Shown here: positions 2,961-46,990 of the stretch, piece by piece
How the letters are laid out: every line of letters starts with the position of its first letter
Numbering within the stretch: position 1 is the stretch's first letter
Assembly (NCBI RefSeq): GCF_900110075.1
Contig: NZ_FOCJ01000007.1
Coordinates: 62,001 to 126,000, forward strand
Source: Paenibacillus sp. OV219
GTDB taxonomy: Bacteria > Bacillota > Bacilli > Paenibacillales > Paenibacillaceae
Direction: 5' to 3'
DNA: 64,000 nucleotides
The notes under the pieces: generated by a model
Seen by the model: only the letters and a program-made list of their open reading frames with translations
What the model was told of the DNA's origin: nothing
Database searches by the model: none
Translations under genes and position numbers: made by a program

Positions 2961-2962
2961 GT

Positions 2963-3300
2963 TGAGAGTCGGAGTTTCCAACTCTCAGAGTTGATGACGA
3001 AGCTGAGAGACCACATAGGTTCTCTCAGCGCGAAAACCCGGCGCTTCGCTCGCTGAGAGAGCAAATACGCTCTCTCACGCTCGGAAAACGCCGAAACCTG
3101 GCTCGTTCCGAGTCTGAGTGACCGCATACGATCTCTCAGCGCGAAAACTCGGCGCTTCGCTCGCTGAGAGAGCAAATACGCTCTCTCGCGCTCGGAAAAC
3201 GCCGAAACCTGGCTCGTTCCGAGTCTGAGAGACCACATAGGTTCTCTCAGCGCAAAAACCCCGGTGCTTCGCCCGCTGAGAGAGCAAATACGCTCTCTCA
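2963..3300. repeat. Palindromic repeat family A, locus 1 (three 111-bp units)
   Basis: Palindromes of the form CTGAGAG-N(10-13)-CTCTCAG begin at 3003, 3053, 3114, 3164, 3225 and 3276, with a shorter related hairpin at 2963-2988. Spacing alternates 50, 61, 50, 61, 51 bp, so the unit is 111 bp with two different palindromes (centres CCACATAGG and GCAAATACGC). The spacers are GC-rich and nearly identical between units. The tract lies between the 3' ends of the MATE and VOC genes. Long open frames exist across it only because 111 is a multiple of three. No gene is supported here. Confidence 0.9.
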
Positions 3301-3535
3301 CGCTCCGAGATCACCGCCCCCGGCTCGTACGCTCTCTCACGCTCCGAGATCACCGCCCCCGGCTCGTACGCTCTCTCGCGCGCGGAGATCGCTGCCCCCC
3401 GGCTCGTACGCTCTCTCTCGCTCCGAGATCGCCGCCCCCGGCTCGTACGCTCTCACACGCTCGGAGATCGCCGCCCCCCGGTTCGTACGCTCTCACACTC
3501 TCCGAGATCGCCGCCCCCAGTTCGTATGCTCTCTC
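3293..3535. repeat. Tandem array of six 39/40-bp GC-rich repeats
   Basis: Six copies of a unit built of CGCTCTCTCACGCTCCGAGA, then a C-rich run, then GGCTCGTA. The CTCGTAC/TTCGTAC landmark recurs at 3324, 3363, 3403, 3442, 3482 and 3521, so the period is 39, 40, 39, 40, 39. The array continues directly from the last palindrome of the 111-bp tract and seems to have arisen by amplifying its CGCTCTCTCACGCTC half. Copies near 3293-3369 are almost identical and later ones diverge. Confidence 0.88.
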
Positions 3536-10427: not shown

Positions 10428-10492
10428 GAACGAATGAACGAATGAACGAATGAACGAATGGTCGAATGAACGAACGAATGGAATGAACGAAA
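10428..10492. repeat. Tandem octamer repeat (GAACGAAT)n
   Basis: The octamer GAACGAAT and near copies follow one another about seven times, with one GGTCGAAT variant and a GAACGAACGAATG slip. It lies in the 304-bp gap between the divergent reductase (minus) and small membrane protein (plus) genes. Copy-number changes here could alter the distance between their promoters. Confidence 0.8.
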
Positions 10493-12887: not shown

Positions 12888-15800
12888 ATGAGAAAGCAAG
12901 GGCTGATGAGGAAGGTTGCGGCACTGCTTGTTGTTGCGATGGTTGTAGGGCTCATACAGACCGCAGGGCTAGGCGCGGGGAAAGCAAAGGCAAGCGTTGT
13001 CGATGCTTTGGCAGGTTTGAGTTGGATTGCGAAGCCGGCGGTGACGAATGATCCGACGGAAATGTTCCGTACGGCTGCTTATGGGGCTGGAACGATTGTG
13101 GCGGCGGGTACGCCGACGATGTATTTCCCGGTTAATGATAGTGATAGCAATCCGAATAATGATACCGATGACTTGCTAGACATGCACGGTGGAAACTTCT
13201 ATGAAACCTCTGAAACAGGGGCGTCATGGAATTCGGTAAATGCTGGAATTGCTCACGAATTGAGAAGCCTTGTATATGGGCCGACCGGTTTCGTAGGCGT
13301 TGGTTACGGCCAGCAGATTCAATACGGGCAGCAGAGCTACCATGGCAAAATAATGACCTCCGCCAATGGCTCGAATTGGTCGCTCACTACTCCTACAGAA
13401 GAGTCGGGTATGCAGCTATTTGGCATCACGACGAATGGGACTAACAAATATGTAGCGGTAGGCGCGCATAGCGATATTAATTTCAACCAGACGCCTGTTA
13501 TTTTAACTTATAATGGAACGTCCTGGTCATCGCAATCTTCTGCGGTGAGCAGCGGGGCGATGAATGCTGTTACATATGGCAATAGCATGTATGTTGCGGT
13601 TGGCAGCAGCGGCGCGATTCAAACGTCGAGCGATGGTGGGAGCTGGACGCAGCAATCGTCTGGCGTTACATCAACTCTGCGCGGCGTTGCTTATGGTAAC
13701 AGCAAATTCGTTGCTGTAGGAAGCAGCGGCAAAATCCTCACTTCGTCTAATGGATCGACATGGTCTGTGGCGACGCCTCCTGTGAGCGGGACTTTCAACA
13801 GTGTTGCCTATGGCAATGGAACTTTCGTCATTGCTGGCAATGGCGGAGTTATTCTGAGCTCGCAGGACGGATCTAGCTGGACCCAGCAGATATCAGGCAC
13901 GACTCAAGTGTTGTACGGAGCAGCTTACGTGAACGGTGAGTTCATGGTGCTCGGCGCGAACGGCACGATTCTGATGGCGCAGCACAAGCTGAACTATACG
14001 GCAGACGCGAACGGTACGATTGCCGGCAATTCGGTGCAAGGCGCGAAGCTTGGCGGGAGCGGTACGGTTGTAACTCCAGTGGGGAGCACAGGATACGAGT
14101 TTGATAGCTGGAGCGACGGGCTCTTTGGGTCATCGGGCGGTGTGCGTACGGACAGCAGCATATCAGGCGATATCAGCGCAGTTGCTTCCTTTAAACGAAT
14201 CATGCTTCCATTGACATACGTTACATCAGGTAATGGCCATATTGATGGATCGAGCAGCCAGTCGGTCCCGTATGGAGACAGCGGTACTGCGGTTACAGCC
14301 GTGCCGGATGATAACAATCATTTTGTGCAGTGGAGCGACGGGAACACGAGCGCAACTCGTACGGATCTGAACATCACGGCGAGCAAGACGATAACGGCTC
14401 AATTCGCGATCGATACTTACAATGTTGCCTACACAGCGGGCGCAGGCGGAACGGTTAGCGGTACGGCTTCGCAGACGGTGAACGTCGGAACGGATGGATC
14501 GCAAGTAACGGCGACTCCGAATACGGGGTATCATTTTGTCGAATGGGATGATGATAGTACGAATCCGACTCGCTCTGAAAGCAATGTTCGGGAAAACTTA
14601 AGCTTTACGGCTAGCTTTGCAATCGACACATTTACGCTGAAATATCGCGCAGGTACTGGCGGTAGCCTAACAGGCGGTGACGCAGATCAGACGGTAGAAT
14701 ACGGACAAGCTGCTACAGCAGTAACCGCAGTACCGGCTACAGGTTACAGCTTCGTTGAATGGAGTGACCATGTAACGACCGCAACGCGCTCAGACCTTAA
14801 TGTTAAGAATAATATTGATGTACAAGCACTCTTTTCAATTAATAAATACACACTTTCTTATCCTGCAACTACAGGCGGCAGCGTTAGTGGCAGTGCTACT
14901 CAGATGGTAGATTACGGTTCTAACGGCACTGAGGTAACGGCTGTAGCGGATATAGGCTATCAATTTGTAGACTGGAGCGACGGAAACACGAACGAGACGC
15001 GACAGGATTTGGGCATAACAAGCAGCAAGTCATTTACGGCGAATTTTGCAATCAATACTTATCATCTCACTTATTCGGCGGGAGCTCACGGAACAGTTGA
15101 CGGAACGCTGCAGCAAATCGTGAACTATGGTGCGGATGGCGCTGAAGTGACGGCGACACCTGAGACCGGGTACCACTTTGTGAAATGGTCCGACAATAAT
15201 CTGTCAGCAAGCCGGACGGATGAGGAAGTCGAACAGGATATTACGGTGAGCGCGAGCTTTGCAATCAATCAGTACACGCTGGATTACGAGACGACCACAG
15301 GCGGAAGCTTGACAGGCAGCGCACATCAGAGCGTGAATTACAATGCTGACGGAACGGAGGTAACGGCTGTAGCGGGGACGGGCTATCACTTTGTTTCGTG
15401 GAGCGACGAGGTGTTGACGGCAACGCGTCAGGAGCTAGACGTTGCAGCGGACAAGCAGGTAACAGCGATTTTTGCAATTGACAGCTTTGTGCTGACCTAT
15501 ACAGCGGGAGCGAACGGCTCGATTACGGGCACAACGCCTCAAACTGTCGAGTATGGCGCGGATGGCGCGACTGTGACGGCGGTACCGGCAACAGGGTATC
15601 ATTTTGTAAAATGGAGCGATAATGTTCTGAGGGCATCGCGGCAGGATACAGATGTGACCGGAGCGATTACGGTAACGGCGCAGTTTGCCATCGATACGTT
15701 TAACTTGAACTATACGGCTGGTGAAGGCGGCAGCATTGACGGAGAGGAAGCGCAAGTGGTTGAACGAGGCGCGGACGGCTCCGAAGTGACCGCAGTTCCA

Positions 15801-18053
15801 GTAACGGGCTATCACTTCGTAGATTGGAGTGACGGTGAAGATACAGCGTCCCGTACGGATACTGGCGTTACCGCTGACATTAGCGTAACAGCGAATTTCG
15901 CGATTAACGAATACACGCTGACGTATACCGCGGGAGCGCACGGATCATTGACCGGTGATCCGGAACAGACAGTGACGTACTTATCGGATGGCTCGGAAGT
16001 GACGGCAGTGCCGGCAACGAACTACCACTTCGTAGGCTGGAGCGATGGCGAAGATACGGCGACTCGTACAGACACTGATGTTACCGCCGGAATCAGCGTA
16101 ACAGCGAATTTTGCGATTAACGAATATACGCTGACATATGCCGCTGGACTGAACGGAACATTGACAGGCGACACGGACCAGAAGGTAACGAATGGTTCAA
16201 ATGGCGAAGCAGTGACGGCGGTTCCGGCAACAGGCTATCACTTTGTAGGCTGGAGCGATGGCGAGGAAACGGCGACCCGTACAGACATCGGCGTTACCGC
16301 TGACGTGAGCGTAACAGCGAATTTCGCGATAAACGTATATACACTGACGTATAGCGCGGGACCGAGCGGAACATTAACAGGCGTCACCGATCAAACGGTA
16401 ACGTACGGCTCGGATGGCACGACAGTCGTGGCAGTCCCGGCAATGGGCTATCACTTTGTAGACTGGAGCGATAGCGAGGATACGGCGACTCGTACGGACA
16501 TTGGCATAACCGCCGATCTAAGCGTAACCGCGAATTTTGCGATTAACGTATACACGCTGAAGTATATCGCGGGAACGAACGGAACATTGACAGGCAACGC
16601 TGACCAGACAGTCACACACGGCTTGAATGGCACGACCGTAACGGCTGTTCCGAACGCTGGTTACCGCTTTGTCAGCTGGAGCGATGGTGTTACAACTGCG
16701 GAGCGAACGGACTTGAATATCAGCAGCGACGTAACCGTAACCGCTTCGTTCAAGCACCTTACTACAAACAGCACTGGCGGCGGTGACAGCACGCCGCAGA
16801 CGGAAGGCGCAGAAGTCATTATCGGAGGAAAACCGTACACGGTGGGCGAACTGCATGATTCTGAGCGTGACGGGCAAACCGTCACAACGGTAACGGTGGA
16901 TGAAGGTAAAGTGAAAGAGCTGCTGGCAAGCGGGGGTCAAGCGCCTACGATTACGATACCAGTGAATACGGATGCCGACGTTGCGGTAGGCCAGCTCTCG
17001 GGCGGCATGCTTCAGCAGCTGGTCGCGAAGGAAGCGACTCTGCGAATAGAGACAGAAGGCGCAATCTATTCGCTGCCTACTCAGCTGATTGATCTGGAAG
17101 CGATGGCGAAGCAGTTCGGAACGGATGTACAGGCGAGTGACCTGACGGTAAGTATTGAAATCGGCAAGCCGACAGCGGCAGCTGCAGCAGCTGCTCAGCA
17201 AGCGGCGGAGAACGGGGATGTATCAATCATTGCCCCGCCGGTTAGCTTCTCGGTACATTTCTCCTATAACGGTCAATCGATCGAGCTGTCCTCGTTCCCT
17301 TCATACGTGGAGAGAATACTAAGTATTCCTGGAATGGATACGATGCAGGAAGCGACTACGGCAGTCATTATCGAGCCGGACGGCACGCTGCGTCATGTGC
17401 CGACAAAGCTGGTTCAGGTGGATGGCAAATGGTATGCAGTTGTAAACAGCTTGACGAACAGTATGTATGCCGTTGTGGACAAGCATGTTCATTTCACGGA
17501 TATCATGAATCACTGGGCGAAGGATTCCATTATAAATATGGGATCACGTACAATCGTAGGCGGAACGGGCAATGAGTTATTTGAACCGAATAAAGCCATT
17601 ACCCGCGCTGAGTTTGCAGCGATTATCGTTCGTGCACTTGGTCTTAAGCTGATGGATGGAACAGGCGGATTCACGGATGTTCAGCCATCGGCATGGTACG
17701 CGGATGCGGTTCAGACTGCTTATGCGAACAACCTTATTAACGGCTTCGAGGACGGCAGCTTCCGTCCGAATGCAAGCATTACCCGCGAGCAGGCGATGAC
17801 GATGATCGCGAAGGCAATGAAGATCACAGGAATCGACGTGAATCTTCAAGCAGGCGACGCGGAAGCTCTGTTAATCCGCTTCGCGGATAAGGCGAGCGCT
17901 GGCGGATGGGCGGTAACCGGTATTGCAGCATGCTTGCAATCCGGCATCGTATCCGGTCAGAGTGCGGCTGCGCTAGCACCGAAAGCCGATATTACACGTG
18001 CAGAGGTTGCCGTTATTATCGAGCGGCTGCTGGTGAAGTCCAGCTTGATCTAA
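12888..18053 (+). CDS. Secreted S-layer homology protein with propeller-like head and 13 tandem repeats
   Basis: A 1721-residue exported protein. A signal peptide of about 36 residues (basic start, then VAALLVVAMVVGLIQTAG) is followed by a region to about residue 365 made of 45-50-residue units of the type NSVAYGNGTFVIAGNGGVIL...W, suggestive of a beta-propeller. Residues about 367-1290 are 13 tandem copies of a 71-residue module (LTYTAGA.GTLTG....V.YG..G..VTAVPATGYHFV.WSDG..TATRTD......) of the Listeria-Bacteroides/InlB B-repeat type. After an uncharacterised 240-residue segment come three SLH domains (about 1533-1721) with ITRAE and ITREQ motifs, which bind pyruvylated cell-wall polymer. 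It is a cell-surface protein, probably an adhesin or spacer-mounted sensor. GAGGAGGG precedes the start. Confidence 0.93.
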   Translation: MRKQGLMRKVAALLVVAMVVGLIQTAGLGAGKAKASVVDALAGLSWIAKPAVTNDPTEMFRTAAYGAGTIVAAGTPTMYFPVNDSDSNPNNDTDDLLDMHGGNFYETSETGASWNSVNAGIAHELRSLVYGPTGFVGVGYGQQIQYGQQSYHGKIMTSANGSNWSLTTPTEESGMQLFGITTNGTNKYVAVGAHSDINFNQTPVILTYNGTSWSSQSSAVSSGAMNAVTYGNSMYVAVGSSGAIQTSSDGGSWTQQSSGVTSTLRGVAYGNSKFVAVGSSGKILTSSNGSTWSVATPPVSGTFNSVAYGNGTFVIAGNGGVILSSQDGSSWTQQISGTTQVLYGAAYVNGEFMVLGANGTILMAQHKLNYTADANGTIAGNSVQGAKLGGSGTVVTPVGSTGYEFDSWSDGLFGSSGGVRTDSSISGDISAVASFKRIMLPLTYVTSGNGHIDGSSSQSVPYGDSGTAVTAVPDDNNHFVQWSDGNTSATRTDLNITASKTITAQFAIDTYNVAYTAGAGGTVSGTASQTVNVGTDGSQVTATPNTGYHFVEWDDDSTNPTRSESNVRENLSFTASFAIDTFTLKYRAGTGGSLTGGDADQTVEYGQAATAVTAVPATGYSFVEWSDHVTTATRSDLNVKNNIDVQALFSINKYTLSYPATTGGSVSGSATQMVDYGSNGTEVTAVADIGYQFVDWSDGNTNETRQDLGITSSKSFTANFAINTYHLTYSAGAHGTVDGTLQQIVNYGADGAEVTATPETGYHFVKWSDNNLSASRTDEEVEQDITVSASFAINQYTLDYETTTGGSLTGSAHQSVNYNADGTEVTAVAGTGYHFVSWSDEVLTATRQELDVAADKQVTAIFAIDSFVLTYTAGANGSITGTTPQTVEYGADGATVTAVPATGYHFVKWSDNVLRASRQDTDVTGAITVTAQFAIDTFNLNYTAGEGGSIDGEEAQVVERGADGSEVTAVPVTGYHFVDWSDGEDTASRTDTGVTADISVTANFAINEYTLTYTAGAHGSLTGDPEQTVTYLSDGSEVTAVPATNYHFVGWSDGEDTATRTDTDVTAGISVTANFAINEYTLTYAAGLNGTLTGDTDQKVTNGSNGEAVTAVPATGYHFVGWSDGEETATRTDIGVTADVSVTANFAINVYTLTYSAGPSGTLTGVTDQTVTYGSDGTTVVAVPAMGYHFVDWSDSEDTATRTDIGITADLSVTANFAINVYTLKYIAGTNGTLTGNADQTVTHGLNGTTVTAVPNAGYRFVSWSDGVTTAERTDLNISSDVTVTASFKHLTTNSTGGGDSTPQTEGAEVIIGGKPYTVGELHDSERDGQTVTTVTVDEGKVKELLASGGQAPTITIPVNTDADVAVGQLSGGMLQQLVAKEATLRIETEGAIYSLPTQLIDLEAMAKQFGTDVQASDLTVSIEIGKPTAAAAAAAQQAAENGDVSIIAPPVSFSVHFSYNGQSIELSSFPSYVERILSIPGMDTMQEATTAVIIEPDGTLRHVPTKLVQVDGKWYAVVNSLTNSMYAVVDKHVHFTDIMNHWAKDSIINMGSRTIVGGTGNELFEPNKAITRAEFAAIIVRALGLKLMDGTGGFTDVQPSAWYADAVQTAYANNLINGFEDGSFRPNASITREQAMTMIAKAMKITGIDVNLQAGDAEALLIRFADKASAGGWAVTGIAACLQSGIVSGQSAAALAPKADITRAEVAVIIERLLVKSSLI

Positions 18054-25191: not shown

Positions 25192-26106
25192 ATGGATACT
25201 GCAAAACGCAAATGGGTTCCGTATTTCTTCCTATCTCCCTACTTGCTGTTCTATATGGCGTTCGGGCTTATACCGATTATTTTCTCCTTCTACGTCAGCT
25301 TAACGAGCTGGGACGGCATTAGCAGCAAGAAATTCGTCGGCTTCGCCAACTACAAGTTTCTATTCAACGGAGATTCGTACTTCTTTAAATCAATCGGTAA
25401 TACGCTGCTGTTCATCGTGATGACACTACCTTTGCAGCTCATATTCGGACTTCTAATTGCAACGCTGCTCTACAGCCAGTATGTGAAGTGGCGGGCATTC
25501 TTTCAGCTCATTAATTTTCTGCCTTATATCGTGACGCCGGTAGCAGTCGGCTTGATGTTCAATCTGCTGTTCGACTGGCAAGCCGGGTTCGTGAACAAGG
25601 TGCTGATTCATTTGGGCATTATTGATGAAGGCATCTATTGGCTCGGCGACCCCGTGTACACGCGCCTTATTATCGTGCTGATGATGTTCTGGAAAGGCTT
25701 CGGCTATACGATGATTTTCTTCCTCGCGGGGCTTGCCAACATTCCGAAAGACTTGAACGAAGCGGCGCAGGTCGACGGTGCATCCGGCTTCCGCAACTTC
25801 TGGTCGATTACGCTGCCGCTGCTGCGGCCTGTCATTACGTTCATTGTGATTACGGGTATTATCGGTGGATTCCAGCTGCTCGAGGAACCGATGCTGCTGC
25901 TCGGCGGCGCAGGCATGGGCTCCAGTAGTGCGATTATCGGCGGACCAGACCGCTGCTGTCTGACGACGGTATGGAATATGTATGATACAGCTTACGGAAG
26001 CACGACGAGATATGGGCTTGGTGCCGCAATCGCGTATGGGCTATGCGTCATTATCGCGGTATTCTCGTTCATAGGCGTGAGATTTCAGAAGGGGGAACAG
26101 GAATGA
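25192..26106 (+). CDS. Carbohydrate ABC transporter permease (MalF type)
   Basis: A 304-residue permease with six transmembrane segments, starting with a typical MalF/UgpA first helix (VPYFFLSPYLLFYMAFGLIP) and carrying the EAA loop EAAQVDGASGFRNFWSITLP. An extended loop before the last helix (EEPMLLLGGAGMGSSSAIIG) includes two adjacent cysteines (DRCCL), which is uncommon. The stop codon overlaps the next start (ATGA), so the two permeases are translationally coupled. Confidence 0.93.
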   Translation: MDTAKRKWVPYFFLSPYLLFYMAFGLIPIIFSFYVSLTSWDGISSKKFVGFANYKFLFNGDSYFFKSIGNTLLFIVMTLPLQLIFGLLIATLLYSQYVKWRAFFQLINFLPYIVTPVAVGLMFNLLFDWQAGFVNKVLIHLGIIDEGIYWLGDPVYTRLIIVLMMFWKGFGYTMIFFLAGLANIPKDLNEAAQVDGASGFRNFWSITLPLLRPVITFIVITGIIGGFQLLEEPMLLLGGAGMGSSSAIIGGPDRCCLTTVWNMYDTAYGSTTRYGLGAAIAYGLCVIIAVFSFIGVRFQKGEQE

Positions 26107-26921
26107 ATAGATCGCTCCGCACGACGCTTACGACTTCGACGATTGCACTGTTCTCCTTGTTTGCCCTGCTGCCGTTCTACATTATGATCGTGATGGGCAC
26201 GTATCAGAATGAGGAGCTTTTTCAGAAGATTGTGCTGGTACCGGGTCACTACTTGATGGAGAACATCAAGACGGTGGCAGAGAGTCGGTTCGACCTTGCG
26301 TATTTGAACAGCTTCATCGTCTCGGCGGCGAGTACGGTGGTGTCGGTGTTTGTGAGCTGCTTTGCAGGGTTTGCGTTCGCGAAGCATGAGTTTAAGTACA
26401 AGAAGCAGATCTTCTCGGGCGTGTTGCTTACGATGATGATTCCGGGTCAGCTTGGTCTCGTCGCTTTTGTTATCGAGATGCGGTATATCCATGTCTCCAG
26501 CACACTGCTTCCGCTCATTCTACCTTGGGTCGCGAACGCATTCGGTATCTTCTGGATGACGCAGTTTATGAAGGGGGCAATTCCAACCGAGGTGCTGGAG
26601 AGCGCGCGGATCGACGGCTGCTCGGACATCGGTGTGTTTTTTCGGATTGTAGTAGCCTTCATTTATCCGGCAATTGCGACGCTGTCGCTGCTCGTCTTCC
26701 TCTGGTCGTGGAACAATTATTTGCTGCCGTTAATTATTATAAACAAACCGGAGCTGTTCACGATTCCGCTCGCAATCACCTCGCTCGGCAATGCGTACCG
26801 AACCGACTTGGCAGCGCAAATTCTCGGGCTCACGCTCGGGACCATCCCAGTGCTGATTCTGTTTATTTTTGGCTCGAAAAGCTTCATCCGAGGGCTGACG
26901 GCGGGTTCGGTGAAAGGTTGA
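26103..26921 (+). CDS. Carbohydrate ABC transporter permease (MalG type)
   Basis: About 272 residues from ATG 26103, the start set by GGGGGAACAGG just upstream and by the ATGA overlap with the preceding permease; an ATG 20 codons earlier lies inside that gene. It has six transmembrane helices and the EAA loop ESARIDGCSDIGVFFRIVVA. It completes the sugar pore; no ATPase gene accompanies it. The 3' end is followed directly by family A repeats rather than a simple terminator. Confidence 0.93.
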   Translation: MNRSLRTTLTTSTIALFSLFALLPFYIMIVMGTYQNEELFQKIVLVPGHYLMENIKTVAESRFDLAYLNSFIVSAASTVVSVFVSCFAGFAFAKHEFKYKKQIFSGVLLTMMIPGQLGLVAFVIEMRYIHVSSTLLPLILPWVANAFGIFWMTQFMKGAIPTEVLESARIDGCSDIGVFFRIVVAFIYPAIATLSLLVFLWSWNNYLLPLIIINKPELFTIPLAITSLGNAYRTDLAAQILGLTLGTIPVLILFIFGSKSFIRGLTAGSVKG

Positions 26922-26936: not shown

Positions 26937-27219
26937 CTGAGAGAGCGTAATACGTACTCTCAGCACAATAATCGGCCGATTGAAGCTCTGAGAGTACAGA
27001 TTCAGCACTCTCAGAAAAGGAAACAGCCGAAATCGGCAGCTCGGCGGGCTGAGAGAGCGTAATTCGTACTCTCAGCACAATAATCGGCCGATTGAAGCTC
27101 TGAGAGTACAGATTCAGCACTCTCAGAAAAGGAACAGCCGAAATCGGCAGCTTGGCGGGCTGAGAATGCGTGTTGAGAGTGGCCGATTGAATCGATACTC
27201 TTAATATGCTCTCTCAGCA
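26937..27219. repeat. Palindromic repeat family A, locus 2
   Basis: Palindromes start at 26937, 26988, 27049 and 27100 (spacing 51, 61, 51), with decayed copies at about 27160 and 27196. The unit CTGAGAGAGCGTAATACGTA...CTCTCAG plus CTGAGAGTACAG...ACTCTCAG recurs after 112 bp almost unchanged (one T/A difference). Spacers read ATCGGCCGATTGAAG and GCCGAAATCGGCAG. It fills the convergent gap between the MalG-type permease and the small membrane protein at 27272. Confidence 0.9.
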
Positions 27220-34625: not shown

Positions 34626-35390
34626 TTACGCTGTCTCTTTATTAATTCGGTCCATATACTTCGCTATTTCGGCAAGCAGAGCGGGTTTCACACCGTTGGC
34701 TGCCCGCGCCGCACCGAATTCTTCTTCACCTTCGTCCGGCCGATTGAATACGTAACCGTCCAAGTCGTGAATAATGCGGTGCGCATAAATGACTGCTTGA
34801 ATGTCCCGTTTGGCGTTGCCGATCTGGATAAGTGCTGCAACGTCACGCAAGTCCTGTGCTGCCTTCTCGTTGTCGATGACCTCGGCCAACCGGATGTAAA
34901 GCTCAGGGTGATTCGTTAGACTATCAGGGCTGAATATCCCATCCTTCATCTGTTCAGCAGCTTGGGTCGAATGCCCGTATCCCGTTGTTTCTAAGTATCC
35001 GTTCTTATAGAGCCCGACGGTATTGTTCAAATTTCCGTGAATATACCTGATCGCCTTCGCTGCCTCTTCACGATTCGAAATCGCACTGTGGAGTGCCTTC
35101 GTCCGGTCCGCTTGCGGCAATGCTCCGATCAGCACCCGAGTATCGTTATAATCCACTTGGAACGCGTCGATGTTTTGTGCCTTATAGAAATTAAATTTGA
35201 AGCGTGTCAGCTCGAAATCGTTCGCGGCTTCCAACTGTTCTTTTGCATCTACCTTTGGCGTCACAGCTTCGGCTTCTGTATGGACATTCGACGGGTTGGA
35301 TTTTAAATGGTGAAGTCCTACATATACAGCCCCGCTCATCATAACGGCGGCGGTCGAAATTCCGATCAAAGTAACTTGCCATTTCTTCAT
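34626..35390 (-). CDS. Secreted or membrane-anchored protein of unknown function
   Basis: A 254-residue protein I do not recognise. It has a basic start and a hydrophobic segment (VTLIGISTAAVMMSGAVYVG, residues 5-24) with no lipobox, so it is either exported or anchored by one N-terminal helix. The remainder is polar and mostly helical, rich in Ala, Asn and Glu, with His in YIHGNLNNT, GHSTQ and HRIIHDLD. The upstream gap on its 5' side contains family A repeats, so its promoter must lie within or just before them. Possible roles include sporulation or envelope stress, but nothing in the sequence decides this. Confidence 0.72.
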   Translation of the reverse strand: MKKWQVTLIGISTAAVMMSGAVYVGLHHLKSNPSNVHTEAEAVTPKVDAKEQLEAANDFELTRFKFNFYKAQNIDAFQVDYNDTRVLIGALPQADRTKALHSAISNREEAAKAIRYIHGNLNNTVGLYKNGYLETTGYGHSTQAAEQMKDGIFSPDSLTNHPELYIRLAEVIDNEKAAQDLRDVAALIQIGNAKRDIQAVIYAHRIIHDLDGYVFNRPDEGEEEFGAARAANGVKPALLAEIAKYMDRINKETA

Positions 35391-35504: not shown

Positions 35505-35828
35505 CTGAGAGGCCATATATGGTCACTCGTGCGTGAAAGGGGGCGATTATTAAGCTGAGAGTGCTGATTTGACTCTCTCAGAGCAGCGAATAGCTTGAGT
35601 AGGGCGGTTTCTGACGCTGAGAGACCATATACGATCTCTCGTGACCGATTATCCGTGGATTAGAAGCTGAGAGATCATATAGGATCTCTCAGCTTATTTA
35701 TTGGTTCAAAACAGATTACGCAAGGCGCCGGGAGCCTGCGTGTATGCGAAGGTCTGAGTCGGGAATTGCGACTCTCAAGCGTGAAAAGGCGCTGGAATGT
35801 AGCTGAGAGTGGAGAAATCCGATTCTCG
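35505..35828. repeat. Palindromic repeat family A, locus 3 (diverged)
   Basis: Six palindromes start at 35505, 35555, 35617, 35667, 35754 and 35803. Spacing is 50, 62, 50, 87, 49 bp, the same alternation as the other loci apart from one enlarged interval. The copy at 35667-35692 is nearly perfect (CTGAGAGATC/GATCTCTCAG); others show paired changes such as CTGAGTCG/CGACTCTCA at 35754. The 560-bp gap 35391-35951 contains only these and one terminator. Confidence 0.85.
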
Positions 35829-35847
35829 GCACATGAGGCAAAAGCAC

Positions 35848-36604: not shown

Positions 36605-36777
36605 TGAAGTGACCTCCTTTGCCTATTGTCCCGCTTAGCTTACCGCAATCATGATGAAATTAACCGCAGTGACTGCTCATGTCCCCAGCATTTGCCTTGG
36701 TAGATTTGAGCGCTTTTAAGCTTTCTTTAAGGTTACGTCCGTATAGTTGTTGGAGCCAGATAGGAGGAGATGAATGC

Positions 36778-37911
36778 GTGGAACAACAAACACAATTATC
36801 GAGTCAAACACGTTTAAATAGATCGCGTGCGCCTAAGCTAAAGCCTACAAAAACGAAGCGCTTGAAGCGCAGAATGTTGCAGCTATTCATGCTGCTTATC
36901 GTCTTCATTCTATTAGGAGGCGGATGGTTCTACCTGACGCCGTCCGGCTCAAATCTGCGCTATATGATGGCAGATACGCTTATTACGAGCCAGCATCGCT
37001 ACTTGGCGAAGTACCTTATCGGCCAGGATGAGCTAGACAAGCGGGTCGCCGATTACAACAAGAAGTTCGACCAGATGGCGGACGTGAAGGACAATCACAA
37101 CATCAATTTGGCGGCACATCCGGAGGGCAGCGTAGGGATTGAGCCAATTACGCACAAAACCTTCAAGGGCTATCTCATGTACGTGCATGATCCGAAAATG
37201 ATCCGTGTCGTCACAACGAACATTGTTGGCGAAGGAGAGCGCGTACTAAGCATGGTGAAGCGCACGGGTGCGATTGCCGGCGTGAACGGCGGCGCATTCG
37301 ATGATCCGAACTGGGAAGGGAACGGCTTCAAGCCGGCCGGTATCGTCATGTCCGGCGGTAAGGTGCTGTACAAGGGCAATGGCATGAATGCCAAAGTGAA
37401 TGTAGTGGGCATCGACAAGAATGGCCTTATGATCGCAGGTCGTTATACGCCGAACCAGCTAGTAAAGATGGGTGTCTCCGAAGCAGTAACGTTCCAGCCA
37501 AAGTTTATCGTGAACGGCAAAGGGCTTATTAAGAGCGAAGCCGACGGCTGGGGTATCGCTCCTCGTACATCAATGGCGCAGCTGAAGGACGGCACGATTG
37601 TATTCGTCGTGATCGACGGCCGTCAGCCGGGCTATTCGGTCGGTGCGACACTGTACGATGTGCAGAACATTTTGCTCGAGAAAGGCGCAGTAACAGCGGC
37701 TAACCTCGACGGTGGTTCATCGACCGTTCTCGTGAAGGACGATCAAGTCGTTAACAAGCCATCGAGCAAATACGGCCCGCGCTACTTGCCGACGGCTTTC
37801 CTCGTGTTCGACCATCCCGATCAGGTGAACGCCTTGAACATCTGGAGTGGAATTAATATGAACAATTTCGATTCCTCGAAGAAACGGACACAAAGCAGTG
37901 ACGCAGCTTAA
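36778..37911 (+). CDS. Phosphodiester glycosidase family (NAGPA-type) exopolysaccharide protein
   Basis: About 377 residues from GTG 36778, chosen because TAGGAGGAG sits nine bases upstream; the long frame upstream of it has no ribosome binding site. One transmembrane helix (about 30-50, LQLFMLLIVFILLGGGWFYL) anchors an extracytoplasmic domain with the NAGPA family motifs GAIAGVNGGAFDDP, APRTSMAQLKDGTIVFVVID and AANLDGGSSTVLV. The family cleaves phosphodiester-linked sugars; bacterial members are linked with exopolysaccharide or cell-wall polymer processing. It is divergent from the spore coat genes and precedes the deacetylase. A terminator follows. Confidence 0.9.
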   Translation: MEQQTQLSSQTRLNRSRAPKLKPTKTKRLKRRMLQLFMLLIVFILLGGGWFYLTPSGSNLRYMMADTLITSQHRYLAKYLIGQDELDKRVADYNKKFDQMADVKDNHNINLAAHPEGSVGIEPITHKTFKGYLMYVHDPKMIRVVTTNIVGEGERVLSMVKRTGAIAGVNGGAFDDPNWEGNGFKPAGIVMSGGKVLYKGNGMNAKVNVVGIDKNGLMIAGRYTPNQLVKMGVSEAVTFQPKFIVNGKGLIKSEADGWGIAPRTSMAQLKDGTIVFVVIDGRQPGYSVGATLYDVQNILLEKGAVTAANLDGGSSTVLVKDDQVVNKPSSKYGPRYLPTAFLVFDHPDQVNALNIWSGINMNNFDSSKKRTQSSDAA

Positions 37912-46800: not shown

Positions 46801-46990
46801 GTGAGAGTGCTGAATGAACACTCTCAGCAGTGAAATGGCTGATTTTCAAGCACGAGAGATCATATACGATCTCTCAGCTCCAATAGCAGCTCGAATCCGG
46901 CCAATTGTTGCTGCGAGAGTGCCAAATTAGCACTCTCAGCAGTGAAATGGCCGATTTTCAAGCACGAGAGATCATATACGATCTCTCAGC
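46801..46990. repeat. Palindromic repeat family A, locus 4
   Basis: Four palindromes start at 46801, 46852, 46913 and 46964 (spacing 51, 61, 51). Two alternating types are seen: GAGAGTG...CACTCTC (46801, 46913) and GAGAGATC-ATATAC-GATCTCTC (46852, 46964). The unit recurs after 112 bp with CAGTGAAATGGC and GATTTTCAAGCA as spacer. It lies in the convergent gap between the solitary binding protein and the response regulator. Confidence 0.92.

Follow-up and report, generated by a model that had tools for sequence, protein, structure and literature searches.

Linker geometry and helically phased AT content in intergenic palindrome arrays of Paenibacillus

Four palindrome arrays and their anatomy

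The window, that is, the whole 64-kb stretch of Paenibacillus DNA analysed here, contains four arrays of palindromes with CTGAGAG and CTCTCAG arms. The arrays and two accompanying elements, all without strand, are listed below.

2962..3301, no strand: array 1; edge palindrome 2962-2988; regular palindromes 3003-3028, 3053-3078, 3114-3139, 3164-3189, 3225-3250 and 3276-3301, with linkers of 24, 35, 24, 35 and 25 bp between them; Tandem Repeats Finder period 111
3289..3535, no strand: 39/40-bp tandem repeat, 6.3 copies, starting inside the last palindrome of array 1
26937..27126, no strand: array 2; palindromes 26937-26963, 26988-27014, 27049-27075 and 27100-27126; linkers 24, 34 and 24 bp
27160..27217, no strand: cap at the right end of array 2, in which a split CTGAGA...CTCTCAG palindrome encloses an inner one around GGCCGATTGAATCGA
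35505..35829, no strand: array 3; palindromes 35505-35530, 35555-35581, 35617-35642, 35667-35692, 35754-35778 and 35803-35829; linkers 24, 35, 24, 61 and 24 bp
46801..46989, no strand: array 4; palindromes 46801-46827, 46852-46877, 46913-46939 and 46964-46989; linkers 24, 35 and 24 bp

An earlier note on this DNA had described four such loci, and recomputing all palindrome starts confirmed both the loci and their spacings. Start-to-start distances are 50, 61, 50, 61 and 51 bp in array 1 (counted from 3003), 51, 61 and 51 bp in array 2, 50, 62, 50, 87 and 49 bp in array 3, and 51, 61 and 51 bp in array 4; the edge palindrome of array 1 starts 41 bp ahead of the regular series. Two corrections apply: the edge palindrome starts at 2962, and many members carry one to three arm mismatches, as do all four at 46801-46989. 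The window contains 8 exact matches to CTGAGAG-N5..20-CTCTCAG; dinucleotide shuffling, repeated 100 times, gave 0.00 on average.

Each palindrome is 26 or 27 bp long, with 7-bp arms, three to four inner covarying pairs and an AT-rich centre, and successive palindromes are joined by linkers alternating between 24 and 35 bp. Inner pairs 1-4 covary with z values of 3.1 to 11.0 in the 27-bp class and of 2.6, 5.5, 7.3 and 0.4 in the 26-bp class. Such covariation goes beyond the need of a purely double-stranded site, and cruciforms or template-switch correction could be its cause. Hairpins formed by the linkers were rejected because linker ends are no more complementary than permuted columns. A CRISPR array, with identical repeats and unique spacers, was rejected as well, because here linkers recur within arrays and palindromes vary.

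The two spacing peaks of 50 and 61 bp recur beyond the window, an outcome named in the earlier note as support for its reading. They were sought in a 1.66-Mb sample of three genomes, composed of the window itself and of four 400-kb stretches taken independently of the pattern, where 65 of the 77 gaps shorter than 45 bp measure 23-25 or 34-36 bp (42 and 23, respectively). With a looser array definition, 71 of 88 gaps fall in these classes. Linkers of the genome G001 are more variable, lengths of 25 and 36-38 bp being also common.

Other elements may be mentioned beside the arrays. The 39/40-bp repeat at 3289-3535 looks as if one linker and half of a palindrome had been amplified secondarily. 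By eye, a hairpin with a T run, similar to an intrinsic terminator, lies at 2909-2959, between a MatE-family gene (Pfam) and array 1. A 213-bp repeat (4.1 copies, 15785-16652) occurs within a 1721-aa ORF at 12888-18053 on the plus strand, and the 8-bp repeat GAACGAAT is present in 7.9 copies at 10428-10491.

Distribution, genomic place and turnover

A genome-wide search, proposed in the earlier note, found 172 exact palindromes in the window's genome (G000, 6.10 Mb in 38 contigs) against 1 for the reversed pattern. The 117 genomes searched include 22 of the same genus, of which five contain at least 100 exact palindromes (G000 172, G001 100, G003 108, G012 141 and G015 206), two are sparse (G005 5 and G008 3) and 15 have none. 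Outside the genus (95 genomes), four genomes contain one exact palindrome each. Of 394 family genomes, 6 contained the palindrome-pair pattern, and these all belong to the same genus (19 genomes). GTDB contigs yielded 88 loci, every one in Paenibacillus: 31 in P. taihuensis, 31 in strain CF384, 21 in P. lignilyticus and five others in P. alginolyticus, P. phytorum, strain V4I3 (two) and strain Root444D2. Among these five, linker lengths in L037, L110 and L109 are 24 bp for the short class and mostly 33-35 bp for the long one; L075 is devoid of this pattern, and the match in L035 sits at the locus end. The 88 named loci were selected by a 23-25-bp gap; short-linker lengths are therefore biased in this set, and long linkers and composition results are not. 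One array of the sparse genome G005 (L023, 1286-2975) spans 1.7 kb with 30 palindromes whose arms are altered (e.g. GTGAGAGCACG); after its first members, its linkers are mostly 24-25 and 34-36 bp. As to a possible bias in chromosome position, 21 of 31 G001 loci among the matches listed, which are partly restricted by pattern, lie in the half nearer dnaA (main dnaA match at 790 kb; p = 0.07). No description of such a Paenibacillus family was found in the literature searched, which lay mostly outside subscription journals.

In 400-kb stretches of G000 (contig C13), G001 and G003, 8, 9 and 2 arrays were counted (6, 7 and 2 with at least two palindromes), against 0-2 arrays each (0-1 with at least two palindromes) in first-order random versions. 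Lone palindromes with up to three arm mismatches are at noise level, with 64 in real versus 80-81 in shuffled sequence per 400 kb. Single mismatched palindromes being no commoner than in the shuffle, arrays were recounted under a stricter definition, with at least one palindrome having at most one mismatch, and their number fell from 30 to 25. Three of the five arrays dropped were tandem and two lay inside called genes; one of the tandem ones (G001, 10 palindromes) may be real but diverged.

According to a home-made gene caller, which missed an ORF at 26043-26921 ending 16 bp before array 2, the 25 arrays of the 1.66-Mb sample are placed at the 3' ends of genes and comprise 15 between convergent genes, 10 between tandem genes and none between divergent genes or inside a gene. 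Background spacers of at least 50 bp are 129 convergent, 581 tandem and 167 divergent (p = 2.4e-7 for convergent and p = 0.009 for divergent placement). Without the four arrays of the window, in which the family was first noticed, 12 convergent and 9 tandem cases are counted. Array 3 is called tandem because of a minor ORF on the minus strand; judged from the larger ones (34626-35390 minus and 36679-37911 plus), it would be divergent. Palindromes in the sample lie outside called genes in 108 of 110 cases. When pattern-picked loci are added under the looser definition, 42 arrays are convergent, 44 tandem, 2 divergent, 2 inside genes and 26 at locus edges.

Orthologous sites differ in their array content. 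At the G001 sites, array 2 is represented by a single palindrome and array 4 is absent; the L107 array is absent from the G000 site, where L061, an array of P. taihuensis with five palindromes, also has only one palindrome at its own orthologous site. Moreover, G000 contains copies of array 2 at 14 further places, with 83-90% identity over at least 200 bp; one copy, aligned in full, is 88.5% identical over 287 bp. The homology of two copies stops near GCTGAGAG/CTCTCAGC, and left ends vary among 16 copies or array parts. The right-end cap is common to several copies of array 2: eight cap matches were found, seven adjoining arrays and one alone, none of them with a gene-bearing partner, and the sequence examined outside G000 contained no cap. 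The lone cap copy (L257 1501, G000 C15:271110) stands beside a short remnant resembling a long-linker end. Inspection by eye of five ortholog alignments and of one paralog pair revealed no target-site duplication, but the array-less sites are so diverged that one may have escaped notice. Block copies, together with gain and loss of arrays, indicate that arrays spread as blocks, with tandem growth and shrinkage. As for a single recent duplication, which by the earlier note would have spoken against its reading, it does not fit most arrays, which differ in their linkers, although the subfamily of the array at 26937 reflects recent block dispersal.

Mobilisation by a RAYT, another suggestion of the earlier note, was rejected. 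Pfam Y1_Tnp (PF01797) was without match in ten genomes (G000 and nine others, including all five dense carriers), in a search whose control gave matches in 5 of 14 named genomes, and the tags GTAG and CGTC are not enriched, being present in 4 and 0 of 150 palindrome flanks against 212 and 448 of 20000 random 8-mers (1.1% and 2.2%). Carriage by plasmids, phages or viruses was rejected too, array 2 being unmatched among plasmids and phages and the palindrome-pair pattern among viral contigs.

It may nevertheless be imagined that the arrays are a selfish repeat, in which palindromes and phasing would serve the repeat's own mobilisation or amplification complex, with a transposase or recombinase acting in trans and no function for the host; gene 3' ends would then be the places that tolerate insertion. 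The 14 block copies, the common end of homology and cap, the empty or single-palindrome orthologous sites and the patchy distribution all agree with such a repeat, against which stand the missing Y1_Tnp, the confinement of the cap to G000 in the sequence examined, the variable left ends and the absence of target-site duplications by eye and of plasmid, phage or viral-contig copies. On the whole, we consider this explanation doubtful.

Helical phase and composition of the linkers

Phase, linker and wobble tests were run on the looser array set and genome-by-genome phase counts on the stricter one. Among linker representatives with less than 60% identity (64 short and 72 long), AT content is highest at positions 7-8 and 17-18 of the short linkers and near 8, 17-19 and 27-29 of the long ones. 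In 98 non-redundant units with 27-bp palindromes, the AT peaks are found at about 0, 20.5, 30.5, 51, 72, 82, 92 and 113 bp from the palindrome centre, at which the phase of the pattern is anchored. From linker positions alone, the best AT/GC period is 10.29 bp (bootstrap 10.24-10.33, the units being not fully independent).

The phase predicted from the palindrome centre was observed in 63/64 of the short representatives and in 65/72 of the long ones. In the stricter set, it was found in 24/24 short and 15/15 long linkers from those stretches of three genomes that were taken independently of the pattern (G000 12/12 and 9/9, G001 8/8 and 3/3, G003 4/4 and 3/3). The corresponding counts are 36/38 and 33/37 in P. 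taihuensis, 17/17 and 21/23 in P. lignilyticus, and 17/17 and 25/29 in strain CF384; representatives of other lineages have the predicted phase in 11 of 12 cases. Control sequence 300 bp from the arrays is at chance (55/116 in phase). The flanks just outside the arrays are weakly in phase (92/142) and are perhaps decayed units.

At 10.29 bp per turn, a distance of 51 bp makes roughly 5 helical turns, one of 62 bp roughly 6 and one of 113 bp roughly 11; for 26-bp palindromes (spacing 50, 61 and 111 bp) the fit is less exact. This suggests that the fixed 50/61 geometry amounts to about 5 plus 6 turns, with a matching 10.3-bp AT phase in the linkers, and both the helical fit and the linker phase are additions to the earlier note.

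In this context, DNA gyrase might be envisaged as the wrapping protein, by analogy with E. coli BIME-2, and the arrays would relieve supercoils at gene ends. The arrays are indeed positioned downstream of genes. However, gyrase is generally regarded as universal and the arrays are not. In the consulted part of the E. coli study (PMC6379681), the gyrase motif is phased, with enrichment both in BIME-2 and in the regions that follow transcription units, but its period is 10.75 bp, outside the bootstrap interval obtained for the arrays. An involvement of gyrase therefore appears unlikely.

Could the common phase merely be inherited? If one ancestral array had spread and decayed, geometry and AT phase would be unselected left-overs. 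Mean identity of representatives is 0.335 versus 0.250 when shuffled for short linkers and 0.295 versus 0.254 for long ones, and many short linkers of G000 and G001 have in common a core resembling AATCGGCCGATT. Part of the common phase may therefore be due to descent. Still, sequence is nearly random between representatives while linker length (24/35 bp) is kept, which supports the constraint on geometry seen in the earlier note, and the same phase recurs in the diverged lineages. Furthermore, about 98 pairs of homologous short linkers were compared. Substitutions occur at a rate of 0.187 at AT peaks versus 0.326 elsewhere; AT-to-GC change (0.070 versus 0.330) is reduced much more strongly than AT-to-AT change (0.074 versus 0.117; p = 1.8e-5), in statistics that ignore the phylogenetic kinship of the pairs. 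Long linkers (about 52 pairs) follow the same trend without significance (0.205 versus 0.242, p = 0.085; class test p = 0.059). In short linkers, the AT peaks thus change more slowly and tend to stay within the AT class, which speaks for selection on that class rather than for inheritance by itself; descent alone is quite an unlikely explanation.

Finally, transcribed palindromes could act as terminators or stabilise mRNA 3' ends, as the location of arrays after genes and the covariation of inner pairs 1-4 would allow, but this explanation is highly improbable and the RNA-level reading was rejected: the sense strand has no wobble bias (130 G-T versus 113 A-C in 44 tandem arrays; G-T-biased arrays 22 versus 16, 6 ties, p = 0.42), T-run terminators are as common without arrays (34/101 array-free convergent spacers) as at gene ends beside them (13/38 with enough room, 7 more being too close), complementarity of linker ends is at chance, and the window has no Rfam match above the gathering score (0 among 4227 families). 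The DNA-level target suggested in the earlier note is, by contrast, supported.

A possible role in DNA shape, and known systems

Since neither a RAYT nor RNA-level selection is supported, DNA shape remains, and a bending or wrapping site is the favoured reading. We give even chances to the view that the arrays are dispersing intergenic sites of DNA bending or wrapping at gene ends, with a role in helix shape; its chief competitors are the purely selfish repeat and gyrase. In such a model, a putative DNA-binding protein would recognise inverted CTGAGAG half-sites flanking an AT-rich centre. The half-sites would share one face of the helix, and a protein assembly could have the DNA curved or wrapped around it thanks to the phased AT minor grooves. 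The arrays would then serve as architectural or topological sites at the points where the neighbouring genes cease to be transcribed. The helical period of 10.29 bp, shorter than that of the gyrase motif, would fit a left-handed or planar bend better than the positive wrap of gyrase. Any such function would be dispensable, dense arrays being missing from most genomes of the genus (15/22 with none and 2/22 sparse).

A more specific version of the bending or wrapping site is possible, and we propose it tentatively: a nucleosome-like particle of wrapped bacterial DNA, carried by a mobile cassette that spread to gene ends. A unit of 111-113 bp would then make up about 11 turns of 10.29 bp each, its CTGAGAG half-sites facing the same side of the helix at intervals of about 2, 3, 2 and 4 turns. 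Left-handed wrapping is expected to give a period below that of free DNA. The value of 10.29 bp, lower than that of free DNA and of the gyrase motif, would match a left-handed wrap.

RNA hairpins or a RAYT are the usual explanations for palindromic intergenic repeats in bacteria, and the Paenibacillus family gave a sign of neither in the tests made. Its linkers vary in sequence and yet retain both length and helical AT phase. Selection on the shape of DNA at gene ends thereby becomes directly testable, and the arrays offer a natural bait for finding a bacterial DNA-wrapping protein.

The BIME-like layout pointed out in the earlier note holds, in that intergenic palindromes are separated by two alternating linker lengths. 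As in E. coli BIME-2/REP elements, palindromes alternate between short and long linkers, grow in tandem and are found at gene ends. For comparison, 26 REPs were detected by means of a simple pattern in four stretches, of 50 kb each, from E. coli MG1655; their centres lie 37.5-38.5 and 51-55 bp apart, versus 50-51 and 61-62 bp in the Paenibacillus arrays, and a period of 89-91 bp in two arrays of at least three REPs. In the part of the literature consulted, E. coli REPs carry the GTAG tag and are associated with TnpA_REP (PMC8266576), both absent from the Paenibacillus family in the flanks and genomes examined. GTAG/CGTC-tagged REP superfamilies are described, in the portion of PMC3733652 available, as 20-40-bp palindromes occurring singly and as dimers, some with spacers of similar length; they differ from the Paenibacillus palindromes, which have no tag enrichment, and the main text of that article contains neither the word Paenibacillus nor Firmicutes. 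The present family has several REP/BIME features (20-40-bp palindromes, many copies, a mostly intergenic position, alternating linkers and tandem growth), but the two others tested, the tag and a RAYT, failed, and it is therefore not classed as REP/BIME.

MITEs such as bcr1 and Nezha resemble the arrays in being dispersed non-coding copies, and inverted ends may be a further likeness; the arrays differ from them by a tandem multi-unit body and variable left ends, and no target-site duplication was noticed by eye. Nucleosome positioning sequences show an alternation of AT and GC that follows the helix with a period of about 10.2-10.3 bp. The arrays have this alternation too, but are bacterial, intergenic and anchored by palindromes. 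The E. coli gyrase motif obtained by Topo-Seq extends over 130 bp (PMC6379681); apart from its longer period, it differs in that the part of the article consulted names no conserved half-site. As a long degenerate site whose GC content is phased to the helix, it is the published pattern nearest to the Paenibacillus arrays.
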